Source: Polytrichum commune (lineage: Eukaryota; Streptophyta; Polytrichopsida; Polytrichales; Polytrichaceae). Taken from it: 64,000 nt of DNA. The position numbers and the translations under genes are program-made. The stretch spans positions 49,438,758 through 49,502,757 of the forward strand of contig OX485805.1 in the NCBI GenBank assembly GCA_950295325.1, read 5' to 3'. The notes under the pieces are model-generated. The model was not told the origin of the DNA and made no database searches. It saw only the letters and a program-made list of their open reading frames with translations. Positions 1 through 10,560 of this stretch are shown piece by piece (positions within the stretch are counted from its first letter, which is position 1; each line of letters starts with the position of its first letter).

Positions 1-430
1 AATTGCGGGCAGTTTGGGTCGGTCGACCCAAACTGTCTGCTTGGTTTGGGTCGGTCGATCCAAACTGTCTGCCTGGTTTGGGTCGACCGACCCAAACTGT
101 GGACCTAGTTTGGGTCGAGCGACCCAAACTGTCCGCCTAGTTTGGGTCGACCGACCCAAACTGTCGACCTAGTTTGGGTTGACCGACCCAAACTGTCACC
201 CTAGTTTGGGTCGCTCGACCCAAACTGTCCGTCTAGTTTGGGTCGGTCGATCCAAACTGTCCGTCTAGTTTGGGTCGCTCGACCCAAACTGTCCGTCTAG
301 TTTGGGTCGCTCGACCCAAACTGTCCGTCTAGTTTGGGTCGCTCGACCCAAACTGGCTGTAGGTGGTTTGGGTCGCTCGATCGAAACCGCGTGGACAGTT
401 TGGGTCGTTCGACCCAAACCTCGCGCCCAA
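1..430. repeat. 32-bp tandem array of palindromic units
   Basis: The motif TTTGGGTCG-NN-CGACCCAAA recurs every 32 bp (TTTGGG at 13, 45, 77, 109 and so on to 333), then twice more at about 367 and 397 with looser spacing. That makes about 13 units. Each unit is a 20-bp palindrome plus a 12-bp linker such as CTGTCCGTCTAG. The two central bases vary (GT, AC, AG, CT, TT) while the arms are nearly fixed. The array is cut by the window start, so its full length is unknown. The same palindromic motif sits at the centre of the MITE at 38033-38406. It lies just upstream of the ParB/methyltransferase-like gene. Confidence 0.93.
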
Positions 431-456: not shown

Positions 457-486
457 CAGACCCTGTGCGTTAACGCACAGGGTCTG
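457..486. promoter_or_regulatory. 30-bp perfect palindrome upstream of the 706 gene
   Basis: A gapless palindrome is centred on GTTAAC (centre 471/472), with 15-bp arms running CAGACCC inward. It sits between the tandem array and the first coding exon. It could be a protein-binding site, a cruciform-forming sequence or a small transposon footprint. The palindrome is seen directly; the regulatory role is inference. Confidence 0.4.
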
Positions 487-705: not shown

Positions 706-3700
706 ATGGATTTGGAGAGAACGACTGTTATTTCTACTGGTGATGATTCTACAATGCATTCAACTCAAGATCGTCCATTTCAACAAGTTCATGTTCATCA
801 GGATATATCGTCAAATCTTCATAATAAGAAAAAGAAAAAAATAAATGAATCTCTCGATGATTTTGACTCGGATGAAGATAATGATGGTGACAATAAAACC
901 TATCAACAGAAAGTTTGGGAGCTTACGGACAAGCGAAAGGTTAATTCCACTTCAACAATTTCCTCAATCCGTGCTGGACCGAAATCTCGTTTACGTGTAC
1001 CCTTATGTCGCATGGTTCCAATGCCTATTGTGCGTCCTGCTTTGAAAGGCGACATCACTACATTGGAGGCTGATTTTTTCAATGGTTATCGTGATGGTGA
1101 CCGTGTGTTTTATCTATCGGCTACCGACTTTAAGGGAAATTTTCAATTTGTGGATGATGAGGTTCGTGCATCTTGGAGCCCAAATTGGGCTCAAGCTAAT
1201 GCGGTGTTTGAACCTGAATTAGATGCCGATCCTTCATTTACATCATACAAGAACAAGATGTTATTCATATGGGATGGTAATCACAGATTTTTTTCTTGGA
1301 AAAGTTATATTGACCGCTTGCATACCGAAGATTACGAGCGTCATGTCTTTGTGGATTCCATCATTTTGGCGCCCGAGCTTGATGACATTCCAAGTTTGTT
1401 GACTGCTATGCACGACATCAACAAGTAATGTTTTTACTTCTTTATTTTCATTTATTTCTGGTTTGTATTTTGTTATTTGAATTATATCATCCTAAATCCA
1501 TGAATTCAATATTTTTTCAGGTCAACAGAAAACTCTCACGTTTCTACCAATTTGGTGCATACTTTGTATCGGATGCAAAGTATTGGCACCATGCCTTTGA
1601 CTTCTTTTAAAAAACAACTGGATCCTAGAAGTTATAAGCGATGTGAGGAGAAGTCCGTTGAAACTTGGTATTCTTTGACGCGGCCAATTTTTCTTGATTA
1701 TATGTACAGTGTAAGTTTTTCTAGCATTTCCTACTATGTTTTTAATGTTTATTTATCTTTCATTTACATCACATCTATATGTACTTATTAATTTTGGATT
1801 TTGTTTGATTTTTCAGCAAGAACTTGCCGAGGCTAGCGATATTGCTCTCAACCTTTACAATGAAACCCATCCTCTTGAACGAACTTCAGAAGGAGTTTCT
1901 AAAGCAATGTCCGCAGCTGTCAACAAAAAACGTGCAATGTTGTCTTCTAGTTTTACAAAACAACTAGCAATTGCTGACATCAACCTTACCCCTGCTTTTC
2001 TTGAAGAAGTTAAGCACCATTGGGGTTCATTTTCGGTGCCTGAAATGTTACAAGAGAAACTTCATCGTGTTGCTGTTAGTAATATGGATCCAGATGTCAA
2101 AGTCGGATGGCTCAAGCTTTGGAATGGCAATAGATTTGACAAAGATGCATTGCATTTCCCGAAATCACCCCTCTCTGATTCTGCACTTGATGATTGGTTA
2201 TCAAAGGCTACATATTGGGCACAGTTAGAGAAAAAAGCTATTGAAGAGCTTCAAAGTATTATTTCATCTCCTCTTCAATTGCCTGCAGATGTACCTACTC
2301 TCTCCGAATATATCCAAACCTGGAAGTTTGCGGCTTTCAATTCAATATTCGATCGTGAATTCAAAAGCGGAAAAGTAAAAAAACACAACGTTTGGGATGA
2401 GCAACCGAATATTGATCTTGCTATGAAGCGTGTTCTATACAGGTACAACTTATTCTTTACTATTTCTTGATATTTTTTCATTACATTTTACTTTTCATTC
2501 AATATTTGGCTCATAATATTTTTGTGTGTAGGTATTTCCGATATGTTTTGATTCCGCACAAATGCGTTATAGGAGAACCTCATTTTTTTCCAAATTGGCG
2601 TGACACTGGTGCGGAAGACTCATGCATGTTCACTACTGAGATTTGTTTGGATTGGTCGCTCCCACACTATGAGGATTGTGGTTGGTATCTTGATTGTCCT
2701 AAGGATGCATGTCCGTCAAGTGAGAAGACAATCCGTCAGATAAATGATGCCAAAAATGTAGATCCTCGTGATACTGCAATTTTGCAAGCACAAATTGTGC
2801 AGCTTAAACTTAGAGAGCCAGAACCAAAAGAGACAAAACGTCGTAAGAGAAAACATGTTCCTGAAACCAAAATACAAGGTCAATCGGAAATTTCACAACA
2901 TAAAGAATTGCTTGTTCTTTCCAATGATTTGGATAAGAATACACTTGGAGGCGAAAGTTCAAAATCCGGATGCGATGTATTGGAATTTCATTACTCCAGC
3001 ACCTATGACGCTATTCATCGTGCGCCAACGAATGTTTTGAGAAAAAAGTTATTCATACTGAAGAACTTTCTTACGCTCTCTTTTGCTCGATCTACTGCTG
3101 TCAAGAACAAGTCTGAAGGGGTTGAAGTAGGCCCTCCTGAGTGGATCCAATGGCGGGCATTTCTTGAAAATGTAAGTAATCTTCATTTTGTATTTTCTGT
3201 AATGTTCTTACTTTCATTTGGATTTTATTTTGTGTCTTATATTGTGATATGTTGTGGTATTTCAGTTCAAAGACAATCGCGAATTTCATGTCATGGGAAG
3301 TCCGACTCCATTTGCCGTTGACTTGGTTTTTCTGCAATTTCCGGACGGTTTTGACTTCAACCTCTCCAATAGACCTGCTGAAATTCCTCTTTGGAATAAA
3401 TATGACAAGAACTGGATGGTTGCAACAATGTCCTTGTGCAAGTCCATCTTGTCTGATGATGGCGTCCTCATAGTATTTTCTGCTATCGATATGCAAACCA
3501 AGAAGGTTTTGAATTCAACCTTACACAACGGCAACATGAAAGTTCTTAGGACTTTTATTTGCCTCAATTCGTACATGGTGTTCAAGGATCCGGAGTCTCC
3601 AACCTACACCGTAAGTATAACACATCACAATTGTTTCTATTTAATTATTTTGGTGTTATTTGCATTGTATATAGTTTTAATACAATTTACATTTTTTTGT

Positions 3701-4521
3701 GGACTCCGGCATTTATGGCTCATGTCTTGGTAAGGGATTTTACTACCAAAAAATCCACAAGACAACCAAACTCCACTTTTTTCGACACTGGATTGAAAAG
3801 CAAAAACTTGCTTTTCAATTTTGTGGATGAAAAAAACACGCTTCTTCAAAAATCGGGAAGACCTTGGAGGGGGCCATATAAAAAATCGCCGCGTTTTTTT
3901 CAAGATCTTATTGAATTGTTTACACCATCGAATGGACGCGTTGTTGATTTGACATGTTCTACTGGAGCTTCTATCCTAGCAACACGCGCATGTGGCAGAC
4001 ATCTTCTTGCATTTGAGGGTGATAATGACATGTTTGAGCACATATTGAAACCGCTTTTGGAAAAGGTTTTCAAAGAGGGGTCATCTAAGGAGAATATACA
4101 AAATCTCACAAAAGAAGATGATGACCTCTCGGATGAGGAGATGCTTGAATTTGAGTGTGAGTAAGTTTTGATACAATAAATTTTTATTCAATTCATTTGT
4201 TTCATTCAATTCATTGGTTCATTTTTATTTCTTCACATTATTTACATGTTTCATCGATTTGATTTCAGGAATACGATTGGAAAGAGGACATGTCTCCCGT
4301 TTTGGGCACATAGACAATTCCTACGAAGTCCAAGTCGTAGCCCGCGTCTCCCATCATATGCCGAGAATGTTGCAATTGCAATGTTGAATCTCGAAGATTC
4401 GGATCCAAATGAAGAATCTTGCTATAGTTCCAAAATCAATTCGCAATGCAAAGGTGCTCGAATATATATAGATGACGAGGCAAAAGATAGTTTCATGTCT
4501 AGTGCTACTACTTATGAATAA
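706..4521 (+). CDS. ParB-like domain / degenerate DNA methyltransferase fusion protein
   Basis: Seven exons: 706-1424, 1521-1710, 1817-2442, 2532-3171, 3266-3610, about 3703-4160, 4269-4521. Joined, they give about 1076 aa. Phases agree at every junction. All junctions are GT-AG except the acceptor of intron 5, where no in-phase AG is present near 3702 (GTGG is found instead). The ATG follows a likely splice acceptor (TTTTAG at 690-695), so a 5' UTR intron is probable. Residues about 97-260 resemble ParB/Srx-type domains: WDGNHR at 189-194, then an alternating hydrophobic stretch and HDINKS. Residues about 726-960 have the circular order of beta-class amino-methyltransferases. A motif IV-like strand comes first (VDLVFLQFPDG, 743-753), then motif I (VVDLTCSTGAS, 920-930) and a ribose-binding acidic residue (E945). 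The catalytic [DNS]PP[YFW] is replaced by QFPD, so activity is doubtful. The middle contains a lysine/arginine-rich segment. ParB-methyltransferase fusions are known from phages and mobile elements; a spliced plant version is unusual. Function is unknown. Confidence 0.62.
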
Positions 4522-4996
4522 ATTTTTGGACTTCATGTTGTTTATCCTTCTCAACCCTCTTATTACTAAACCCTAAAATCATCATTTTTAAGGCCACAAT
4601 TCCACAGTTATAGGATATTGGTGGCCCTATTACCAAAATTTTCATCTTCCTCACTGCTCATAAGTTACCGCTCATCGCTCACCGCTCATTGCTCACCGCT
4701 CATAAGATAGCACTCCCCATGCCAGACGTTCACTATTTGCATATAGAGGACTACATATAGTCATAGAGGTATGACTATATAGAGTCAAATGGAGCCAAGT
4801 CTCATTGCAGGTCCCGTTTTGAGGTCCCAAAGCACTGTGGGAACGCAACATCGGGAACAAGAAGTGTCCGATATGACCTCTAGTCAGATTGTCCGAAGCG
4901 ACTAAGTCGAAATGACTACAAACAGTGCTAGTCACATTTCGGTTAATGCTCTATTGCAGTCATAAAACCTAGTCACATTGGGTTGGTTTTCTTGTT
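4522..4996. other. intergenic, short GCTCA-type repeats
   Basis: Coding stops at 4521. Positions 4660-4706 carry a short tandem repeat of the type CCGCTCATCGCTCA. The complementary type (GAGCGATGAGCAGTGAGCAA) recurs at about 20691-20720, so it is probably a dispersed element end. No gene is seen. Confidence 0.55.
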
Positions 4997-5617: not shown

Positions 5618-5928
5618 TAGTAAGGGGCACATTCCCGCTCGGGTCCTTAAACTGCTCACTAGACCTATCCAAACAAGAGGTACATTATAGCTTCGTACCT
5701 CAAATTTCTATGTAATCATGGTGTACATTTTTGGGGTGAGTGGTTTTGGGTATCCCTATGAGTTCTCCTTCCAAAATTCATAACTAATTCAATATTAATC
5801 CAAAATTAATTATTCCAATTGGTCCAATTTCCAATGTACTTTGCACATCTTCCAAGATTGATTCCTCCTTAATAACTCCCCAATGAACATGCCAATCTGA
5901 AATTCGAGCGGGAATGTGCCCCTCTACC
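5618..5928. repeat. short inverted-repeat element (MITE-like)
   Basis: AGGGGCACATTCCCGCTCG near 5622 is matched in reverse complement by CGAGCGGGAATGTGCCCCT near 5905, about 280 bp away. This is typical of a small MITE. It lies just upstream of the first RELCH exon retained here. Confidence 0.55.
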
Positions 5929-5999
5929 TTAGTACTTCTCTGCACTCTTGAAAGTTTTAATATTTTCACCCTCTTAATGTTGTATTGTACTATATGCAG

Positions 6000-7385
6000 G
6001 TGAACCGCAACTTGGATGAGTGGCCAAAGACAGTTGCACATGTGCCAGATGCTCTTCGCCGTTATTATGTTGCATTTCTTGCATCGACAAAGGAAGCTGT
6101 GCAGGTGAGTGATTTATTGATTCCTTTATGCAGGTTCAGTGATTCAGTGAGGGAATGAGTCTCTTGATCAAGTATTAGCTCTACTATGTGATTTATTTGC
6201 TATATCCACCTTTCCAAGGCTAAGTGCAAGGTTTCACTCTTGTGCTCGTGTTATATCCAGGAAAGGGAGACTCTTCAGCAGCAGAAAGACTTGTTGTTGG
6301 AAGAGAAAGAAGCACTTGAGGTCGAGAAATTGTACTTTGTCAGAACCCTTGATAGCTTGAGGAGAGATGCTAAGGAGAGGGAGAAACAGGTGAGTAGTTT
6401 GGTACCTCATGTTATCAGTTTAGCATATGATTGCAAATCACATTATTCAAGTTCCTCCTTCATGGGTCGTCATTGTTAACAACAGTATATTAAGCTCTTG
6501 AAGCTTGGTGGTCCCCCAGTGGATGGGAGCTCATCACGTATTTTTACTCTTTGGCCAGTCCTTGATTGAGAATGCTGTGAACTTTCAATAGGGGTACCCT
6601 CTCTGAGGATTAATCAGTGCATTGTGTTGATTAGGCTCAGCACATGAAGGAGTCATTGGATTTTTCTACGAGACAACTCAATGAATGTAGATTGGAGGTG
6701 ACATCCTTGAAATTAGAGCTAGAGAGCTTGATGGCCAGGTTAGCAAGTGGAAATATTTCAACAGTAGTGGATGAGGCAGTGGTTGTGCAAGTAGACCTCT
6801 CTCAGAGTGTACCAGAGTCAGAATTGAAAAAAGAAGCGGAGGAAGACTTTCACTGTGTGGATGATCTCAATGAGCCGGTGGCTTCTGGAAAACTTCAAGG
6901 AAGAGAAGTACAGGTACTTGACCTGATTCTCCATCATGGCAAATTAGGAGGTGGAAAACTCACTATACCAATGACATGTGGTGGCTTTGACTTCAATTGT
7001 TTGATTGAAAATTAGTCCATGAAGTGCACCACTAATTGGATTGACTCTGTTTGTAGTAGGAACTTGCAACTGTGCAGATCTTGGCAGATGCTTTACCAAA
7101 GATAGTTCCTTATGTCCTCATCAATCACAGAGAGGTCTTGTAGCTCCTTCTTTCCTGATCTCTGAATGGTGATGTAGTTCCTATTGGCATTAGTTGATTT
7201 GCTTTGTTTGACTTTGGTTCTTCAGAAATTCTCAATTGCTTTTGTTGCACTTGTAGGAACTATAGCCACTTATTGTGTGTGCTATTGAGAGGCATCCGGA
7301 AAGCAGTGTGCGGGATTCACTTACACATCTCTTCTGTAATCTTATCAAGCGGCCTGATGAAGAGCAACGACGCCTAATTATGGAT
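6000..7385 (+). pseudogene. RELCH-like (LisH and HEAT repeat protein) gene fragment
   Basis: Five exons can be read in one frame, all with phase-0 introns: 6000-6104, 6261-6389, 6635-6913, 7060-7134, 7257-7385 (239 codons). The first encodes the end of a LisH region (DEWPKTVAHVPDALRRYY). The second and third encode a coiled coil rich in Glu, Lys and Leu. The last two encode the start of the HEAT-repeat region (LPKIVPYVLINHRE; AIERHPESSVRDSLTH; LIKRPDEEQRR). This order matches the plant homologue of RELCH/KIAA1468 (Arabidopsis At5g16210 type), a tethering protein acting in endosome-to-Golgi lipid transport in animals. The N terminus and most HEAT repeats are absent. Exon 5 has an in-frame TAG at 7263 where the family has leucine, and the exon 4 donor (GTCTTG) is poor. 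Retained introns show DNA-level capture rather than retroposition. Confidence 0.75.
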
Positions 7386-9639: not shown

Positions 9640-10560
9640 CACTAAAGGTAAGGCATGTGCCTCACTTCTAAACACAAGCATAAGGAAAAATTCAGATTTC
9701 TTAAGGAGGGTGATGCATGTGCCTCACCCCCAAAACACAAATTCAAAATATAAAATTTGGTTTATAAGGGTGAGGCATGTGCCTCAGCTCTAAACACAAG
9801 TTTAAGGAGAAATTCAAATTTCTCAAAGGGGGTGAGCCATGTGTCTCACCCCAAAAAAAACAAATTCAAAACATAGAATTTTATTTCATAAGGGTGAGGC
9901 ATGTCCCTCAGCTCTAAGCACATGCTTAAAAAGATATTCAGATTTTTTAAAGAGGGTGAGGCATGTGTCTCAGCTCTAAGCATAAGTTTAAGGGGAAATT
10001 CATATTTTTCAAGGAGAGTGAGACATGTGCCTCACCCCAAGAAAACAAATTCAAAACATAAAATTTTGTTTCATAAGGATGAGGCATGTGCCTCACCTCT
10101 AAGTACAAGCTTAAGGAGAAATTCAGATTTCTTAAGGACGGTGAGGCATGTGCCTCACCTCTAAGCACAAGCTTAAGGAGATATTTAGATTTTTCAAGGA
10201 GGGTGAGGCATTAGCCTCACCCCAAAAAAACAAATTCAAAATATAAAATTTTGTTTCATAAGAGTGAGGCATGTGCCTCACTCCAAGAAAACAAATTCAA
10301 AACATATAATTTTGTTTGATAAGAGTGAGGCCTGTGCCTCACCTAGCCTCTAAGCATAAGTTTAAGGAAAAATTCATATTTCTTAAGGAAGGTGAGGTAT
10401 GTGCCTCACTTCTTAGTACAAACTTAAGGAGAAATTCATATTTTTCAAGGAGGGTAAGGCATGTGCCTCACTCCAAAAAAACAAATTCAAAACATAGAAT
10501 TTTGTTTGATAAGGGTGAGGCATGTGCCTCATTTCTAAGTACAAGCTCAAGGAGAAATTC
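9640..10560. repeat. about 61-bp minisatellite with palindromic core
   Basis: About 15 copies are spaced 60-63 bp apart. Each is centred on GTGAGGCA-TG-TGCCTCAC, an inverted repeat with 8-bp arms. The spacer alternates between a type with CTCTAAGCACAAGCTTAAGG and a type with CCCCAAAAAAACAAATTC. Long open frames on both strands here are artefacts of the periodicity. Confidence 0.9.

Follow-up and report, generated by a model that had tools for sequence, protein, structure and literature searches.

The window analysed here is a stretch of 64,000 nucleotides from the genome of the moss Polytrichum commune (assembly GCA_950295325.1, contig OX485805.1, positions 49,438,758 to 49,502,757 of the forward strand). 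Its left edge holds part of a DNA transposon with a plus-strand gene of seven exons, whose product combines a ParB-like segment with a methyltransferase-like domain (Table 1). This gene is the second (accessory) gene of a high-copy moss DNA transposon and not a host gene, because it is flanked by element ends with target-site duplications and is present in many copies. An earlier sequence-only reading of the locus had suggested that the gene was either kept by the host, which was rejected on these grounds, or spread as a plant mobile gene, which the element ends, the duplications and at least 150 exon-6 matches bear out.

The element is approximately 11.6 kilobases (kb) long and its left half lies outside the window; homology extends from C3:49431899 (contig and position, in our numbering of contigs) to window position 4718, an extent taken from three long copies chosen for identity. 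Its ends, GAGGGAAGCTATCTTATGAGCG and, reversed, GGGGAGTGCTATCTTATGAGCG, form short inverted repeats. Among 13 copies in which both ends were read (10 of them chosen for having both ends among the end matches listed), the target-site duplication was exact over 10 base pairs (bp) in nine, 9 bp long in two and absent from two. In searches of the moss's own genome, each of the seven large contigs, which together make up nearly all of the 408-megabase assembly, was found to carry the family. The host also looks moss-like by PsaB, whose copy on contig C8 scored best against the PDB chains 8htu, 6l35 and 7ksq of the moss Physcomitrium patens. With a probe of 63 amino acids (aa) from exon 6, at least 150 matches of 40-100% identity were obtained genome-wide, a lower bound comprising all matches scored out of 799 candidates. 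From the 40 left ends scored out of 654 candidates, an exon-6 match in the same orientation lay within 14 kb in 35 cases and within 23 kb in 39; the fortieth (C3:8.74M) was accompanied by exons 1 and 3 only. The left half of the element carries a minus-strand gene of two long exons, the candidate transposase, whose reading frame is uninterrupted in copies A and B but interrupted in C, so that the two genes lie on opposite strands. A putative SWIM zinc finger at the C-terminus of the candidate transposase gave a weak profile match, below the cut-off (16.0 bits against 19.6, E 0.0087). Mutator-like elements make 8-11-bp target-site duplications, and Sola elements 4-bp duplications, versus the 9-10 bp of the moss element. 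The element is labelled probably Mutator-like on three features only, namely the duplication length, the SWIM finger and a D...CxxH pattern read by eye.

Joining the seven exons of the window gene yields 1076 aa and a single stop. Splice sites were compared in 19 copies, comprising the window copy and 18 genome matches picked for high identity or for divergence rather than at random (individual copies are given L numbers). GT-AG borders occur at five of the six introns of the window copy, the exception being intron 5, whose acceptor is GG in the window copy and AG in all 18 other aligned copies. The seven-exon model is, on this comparison, right for the family; the phase-consistent exons of the sequence-only reading therefore stand as to frame and length, with the exception of the intron 5 acceptor, at which the window copy probably splices poorly and is impaired. 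The frame is unbroken in three of the 19 copies: the window copy, L014, in which the intron-2 donor is altered, and L019, which has GT-AG at all six introns. In L023 a 207-bp deletion runs from exon 2 through intron 2 into the beginning of exon 3; otherwise introns were kept, and retrotransposed or processed copies, of which none was found among the 19, were rejected. In the protein, FIWDGNHRF begins at residue 187, motif IV lies at 743 and motif I at 920-947, matching the predicted order of a WDGNHR segment, motif IV some 550 residues further on and motif I after it.

Table 1. Features of the accessory gene and its element in the window (positions count from the first nucleotide of the window).
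Feature	Positions	Strand	Description and basis
Tandem array of 32-bp units	11-420		Palindrome TTTGGGTCGNNCGACCCAAA; 13 matches with at most 3 mismatches
16-bp palindrome TGTGCGTTAACGCACA	464-479		Some 230 bp upstream of the start codon; occurs again in the 64-bp array left of the window
Exon 1	706-1424	+	Acidic N-terminus, ParB-like segment with FIWDGNHRF; splice sites compared in 19 copies
Exon 2	1521-1710	+	Gene model, splice sites in 19 copies
Exon 3	1817-2442	+	Middle region; gene model, splice sites in 19 copies
Exon 4	2532-3171	+	Middle region, basic linker; gene model, splice sites in 19 copies
Exon 5	3266-3610	+	Methyltransferase-like domain, first half; degenerate motif IV (VDLVFLQFPDGF)
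Intron 5	3611-3702	+	Non-canonical GG acceptor in the window copy; AG in 18 of 18 others
Exon 6	3703-4160	+	Methyltransferase-like domain, second half; motif I (VVDLTCSTGAS)
Exon 7 and stop	4269-4521	+	Gene model, splice sites in 19 copies
Right terminal inverted repeat	4697-4718		Left end at C3:49431899, outside the window
10-bp target-site duplication ATGCCAGACG, right copy	4719-4728		Element-end comparison

The methyltransferase-like half was compared with the N6_N4_Mtase profile (PF01555), as the sequence-only reading had proposed. The whole protein matched with E 0.073, in its METHYLTRANSFERASE half, and the trimmed domain of the window copy with E 6.4e-4 (20.2 bits, below the cut-off of 26.7); a match was found in three of four family members, the best with E 1.1e-6. 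An hhalign comparison was made between a query profile of four family members (effectively two) and a target of six ParB or ParB-methyltransferase sequences, from contig C12 (one), viral contigs (three) and phages (two), a set including L047, which on discovery had matched by its ParB part alone. Residues 717-957 were aligned with P 5e-6, and the alignment set motif IV opposite DPPY and motif I opposite the glycine loop, in the order of the beta class (IV before I). For the domain only, the score was 48.6 over 60 aligned columns; 100 column shuffles reached at most 33.0, and the reversed alignment scored 18.1. The profile match and hhalign thus support an N4/N6 methyltransferase-type domain in the IV-then-I order that had been read from the letters. 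A PHROGs search with the divergent methyltransferase domain gave weak DNA-methyltransferase matches (best E 0.0015), and the best match of a PDB profile search was DpnA (E 0.41), over motif I.

The catalytic motif of N4/N6 methyltransferases is (D/N/S)PP(Y/F/W), and it was present in no copy read, whether of the main family or divergent. Motif IV reads QFPD in 17 of the 19 copies (L031 has QFSD and L024 a stop inside the motif), and in five divergent copies DIPD (L037, L038), DIND (L040), DIYD (L042) and DTQY (L039, a broken copy); for motif I, the main family has CSTGAS, and L037 and L038 have VGTGAS. Because the catalytic DPPY is degenerate in nearly all copies read, the domain is probably inactive. 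An active N4-cytosine or N6-adenine methyltransferase, writing a bacterial-type mark on its own element in the way proposed for the algal proteins, would fit the motif order and the domain match, and adenines would be available to it in the central GTTAAC of one of the palindromes described below; set against this are the missing catalytic motif and, in the main family, the altered glycine pattern of motif I. We consider such an enzyme quite unlikely, notwithstanding algal precedents that are predicted to make N4-methylcytosine or N6-methyladenine (PMC12477816, as excerpted). Elsewhere on the chromosomes, two N6_N4_Mtase matches (C1:9662150-9662797 and C4:44111740-44111898), each in an open frame of 577 aa and outside the exon-6 matches, are possibly host N4/N6 methyltransferase genes.

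The N-terminal half is called ParB-like because of its WDGNHRF motif and because this two-domain layout has been published before; ParB N-terminal domains carry a conserved basic GxxR-type motif. DGNHR (residues 190-194) is present in 16 of the 19 copies, with DGSHN in L025 and DGNHK in L033. The WDGNHRF.AW motif is kept in L038 and L040, whose exon-1 segments are approximately 37% identical to the main family; it reads NGNHR in L037 and is broken in L039 and L042. A PDB search with the DGNHR segment gave no match, and two ParB-like segments matched only unknown-function and head-protein families in PHROGs (best E 0.014). Phage-type ParB-methyltransferase fusions, represented by L043 on contig C12 and by WBK39746.1 of a Desulfofustis phage, share the domain order of the moss protein, and their methyltransferase domain aligns over moss residues 717-957; they differ in being encoded in one open frame of 443 and 430 aa, respectively, with an intact DPPY in L043, and by hhalign their ParB parts have no significant alignment with that of the moss protein. 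In viral contigs, eight stretches matched a pattern and none encodes a relative, the query being a single sequence that reaches close relatives only. On small contigs of the assembly, C12 (L043), C23 (L044) and, by matches only, C10, there are ParB and methyltransferase genes of prokaryote or phage type in single open frames, which probably come from an associated microbe.

Coding constraint was estimated from nonsynonymous (dN) and synonymous (dS) divergence. Between the window copy and L019, dS was 0.196 and dN 0.027, giving a dN/dS of 0.14, a value that marks the frame as more than chance and, coming from two subfamilies, indicates by sequence comparison that the transposon-encoded protein was under purifying selection. 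By residues, dN/dS was 0.14 (1-80), 0.11 (81-320), 0.09 (321-580), 0.15 (581-700), 0.26 (701-960) and 0.75 (961-1076), the last resting on one synonymous and three other changes only. Against its closest copies the window copy gave 0.42-0.57, as expected of young, partly decaying copies. Synonymous divergence from L019 falls along the gene, from 0.41 in the ParB-like region (81-320) to 0.015 at the C-terminus (701-1076), which points to recombination or gene conversion between subfamilies. The low dN/dS also bears on whether the element might have picked up a host gene that it carries along without using it, as in Pack-MULEs. Plant Mutator-like elements do capture genes; here, the regular presence of the gene after left ends (exon 6 within 14 kb in 35 of 40), its retention in divergent subfamilies and the selection on it speak against capture, none of the exon-6 matches scored (150 of 799 candidates) could be recognised as a single-copy host homologue, and capture is accordingly very improbable.

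Between its two genes the element holds two tandem arrays with perfect palindromes. One of them, to the left of the window at element positions 5688-6116, consists of 64-bp units and contains AAACCCTGTGCGTTAACGCACAGGGTTT; the other, of 32-bp units, contains AGTTTGGGTCGNNCGACCCAAACT, with further copies in the intron of the candidate transposase outside the window. In 60 distinct 32-base units, information content was 1.4-2.0 bits per position in the palindrome arms, 0.1-0.4 at the two central bases and 0.15-1.6 elsewhere, a contrast that is partly built in since the units were picked by arm resemblance (at most five mismatches), some of them outside the arrays. The CpG observed/expected ratio was 1.06 for the 32-bp array and 0.71 for the 64-bp array, compared with 0.36-0.60 in six window stretches outside the element. 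As a sign of unmethylated arrays, high CpG is weak and fails to single them out, because values of 0.96-1.12 are reached in other parts of the element, near the 64-bp array and in the region of exon 1.

Divergent copies, approximately 21-55% identical to the main family by segment (higher in a few short pieces), carry arrays of their own. In a second subfamily (L037, L038) the repeat unit, found upstream of the gene, is 104 bp long and contains TTTGTGCGCTGGCGCACAAA; a third (L039, L040, L042) has 116-bp units, with GATAGGGCGTTAACGCCCTATC in the L042 array, the arrays of L039 and L040 being partly decayed. In four consensus units the palindrome arms measured 14, 11, 9 and 11, lengths reached by 0, 0, 4 and 0 of 3000 dinucleotide shuffles. 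The 64-bp and 104-bp units have common stretches of at most seven bases, half-sites among them. The three subfamilies thus share a 16-bp form, xGxGCG-N4-CGCxCx, located 5' of the gene in otherwise different repeats.

Genome-wide, TGTGCGNNNNCGCACA (TGTGCGN4CGCACA) occurs at 852 places, against four for a reversed control. The first 50 of these sites, which were listed and are all on C1, make up six groups. Five groups are located 5' of an exon-6 match at 3.4-8.3 kb, distances that include approximately 3 kb of the gene itself; the sixth is approximately 20 kb from an exon-6 match. AGGGCGNNNNCGCCCT occurs at 10 places (control 0), seven of them with a TTAA centre. Six of the seven exact places of AGGGCGTTAACGCCCT (C1:45.60M, C2:33.98M twice, C3:15.91M, C3:42.41M and C7:9.39M) lie 0.9-6.9 kb 5' of a divergent exon-6 match, the site at 0.9 kb being one that would fall inside a full-length gene. 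The independent count for AGGGCGTTAACGCCCT is two of three, because four of the six sites belong to the three loci in which the motif was found. The association of palindromes with the gene is also partly explained by the common descent of the copies.

Arrays that are specific to a subfamily and yet carry a GCG-N4-CGC palindrome would fit a role in self-recognition like that of VANC. We somewhat favour the reading in which the gene encodes an accessory protein with a ParB-like segment and an inactive methyltransferase-type domain that serves self-recognition through the palindromes, most likely for anti-silencing. The protein would bind palindromes of its own element as a dimer, the methyltransferase fold being used for DNA contact and not for catalysis; candidate binding sites are TGTGCGTTAACGCACA, TGTGCGCTGGCGCACA, AGGGCGTTAACGCCCT and TTTGGGTCGNNCGACCCAAA. 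Binding would mark the element as its own and most likely protect it from host silencing in the manner of VANC, or may assemble the transposase on it. Binding to the palindromes is the part of this proposal to which we give more weight, with less given to anti-silencing by that binding. Alternatively, the protein may act purely as a transposition co-factor that gathers the transposase on the intergenic and intronic palindromes in a ParB-parS-like complex, with no role in silencing. ParB proteins load on palindromic parS sites, and the arrays sit in the candidate-transposase intron and between the two genes; that they are internal rather than at the element ends, and that the relationship to ParB is itself in question, make this an unlikely explanation.

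Several results weigh against self-recognition by a ParB-like protein. As to the protein, homology to ParB is unproven. The ParB profile (PF02195), the check proposed for the ParB N-terminal domain asserted by the sequence-only reading, gave no match in the Pfam search. A first hhalign run was misplaced and scored 19.0, the best of 60 shuffles reaching 18.5; a run with more members fell on the GxxR motif but with P 0.28. AlphaFold2 gave the exon-1 product alone, from a single sequence, a predicted local distance difference test (pLDDT) score of 35, too low to be informative on a ParB/Srx fold. In L014, whose frame is among the three unbroken ones, the motif reads DGNYK instead of DGNHR. As to the element, the candidate transposase had no match to the Pfam MULE profile (PF10551), and hhalign found no similarity between it and a MULE protein of the same genome. 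As to the sites, the AGGGCGTTAACGCCCT copy at C3:16.07M has no exon-6 partner (one of seven), and the exon-6 match at C4:26.76M has no AGGGCGTTAACGCCCT, the other five of the six exon-6 matches of 48-55% identity having one. The palindromic arrays could also serve the transposase or a host factor. TTTGGGTCGNNCGACCCAAA in particular occurs at 9731 exact places genome-wide, against none for its reversed form. The tandem units that hold it measure 32, 57, 64 or 78 bp, among other lengths, and lie beyond the element as well; it was found in L082 (590-1839 and 5038-7471, with unrelated open frames) and in the flank of L019 (7450-8233); the idea that the palindrome of the 32-bp array is private to the element was therefore rejected. 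This abundance and variety of unit lengths would suit 20-bp and 16-bp palindromes that are sites of a host protein (an origin, insulator or telomere/centromere factor), exploited by transposons and unbound by the transposon protein. Since the GCG-N4-CGC palindromes accompany the gene, in five of the six TGTGCG clusters among the sites listed and at six of the seven exact AGGGCGTTAACGCCCT places, we hold this, too, to be unlikely.

Transposon proteins with ParB and methyltransferase domains have been reported in brown, green and red algae (PMC12477816, as excerpted). The sequence-only reading knew of no characterised plant protein of this kind; our literature search results contained no ParB-methyltransferase transposon protein from land plants, but the same fusion is reported in algal transposons. 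Likened by description and not by sequence, the accessory protein of Sola1-1_Ec32 from Ectocarpus resembles the moss protein in length (1104 versus 1076 aa), in its ParB-like and N4/N6 methyltransferase domains and in being encoded on the strand opposite the transposase (in the moss, the candidate); it differs in that the catalytic motif is degenerate in the moss and in that the host there is a moss (excerpts of PMC12477816). The present family extends these algal proteins to land plants, and relative to the excerpted algal report adds candidate binding sites that, inside a single genome, pair with subfamilies of the protein. VANC anti-silencing proteins cause loss of methylation at elements bearing their motif. 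In Arabidopsis, VANDAL elements carry the VANC motifs as tandem repeats, located in introns and upstream regions (PMC5735166, as excerpted). VANC is alike in being a plant transposon accessory protein with tandem-repeat motifs that differ between related elements; the likeness is drawn without sequence comparison, that paper does not use the word palindrome, and anti-silencing in the moss is a conjecture by analogy. If it holds, two kinds of plant transposon protein would have converged on tandem arrays with a dedicated binder. More tentatively, and with some doubt, a bacterial-type ParB-methyltransferase fusion may have entered plant transposons, lost catalysis and become a sequence-specific self-recognition protein co-evolving with parS-like palindrome arrays, as an independent counterpart of VANC built on a dead DNA methyltransferase.

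Two further observations were made. On C7, family copies at 12032769-12036164 and 12076292-12079687 lie in opposite orientation approximately 40 kb apart with the same exon match scores, which suggests an inverted duplication. Adjoining the element in the window, the plus strand of positions 5990-7000 carries coiled-coil-like coding exons (with VNRNLDEWPKTVAHVPDALRRYYVAF... and ERETLQQQKDLLLEEKEAL...).

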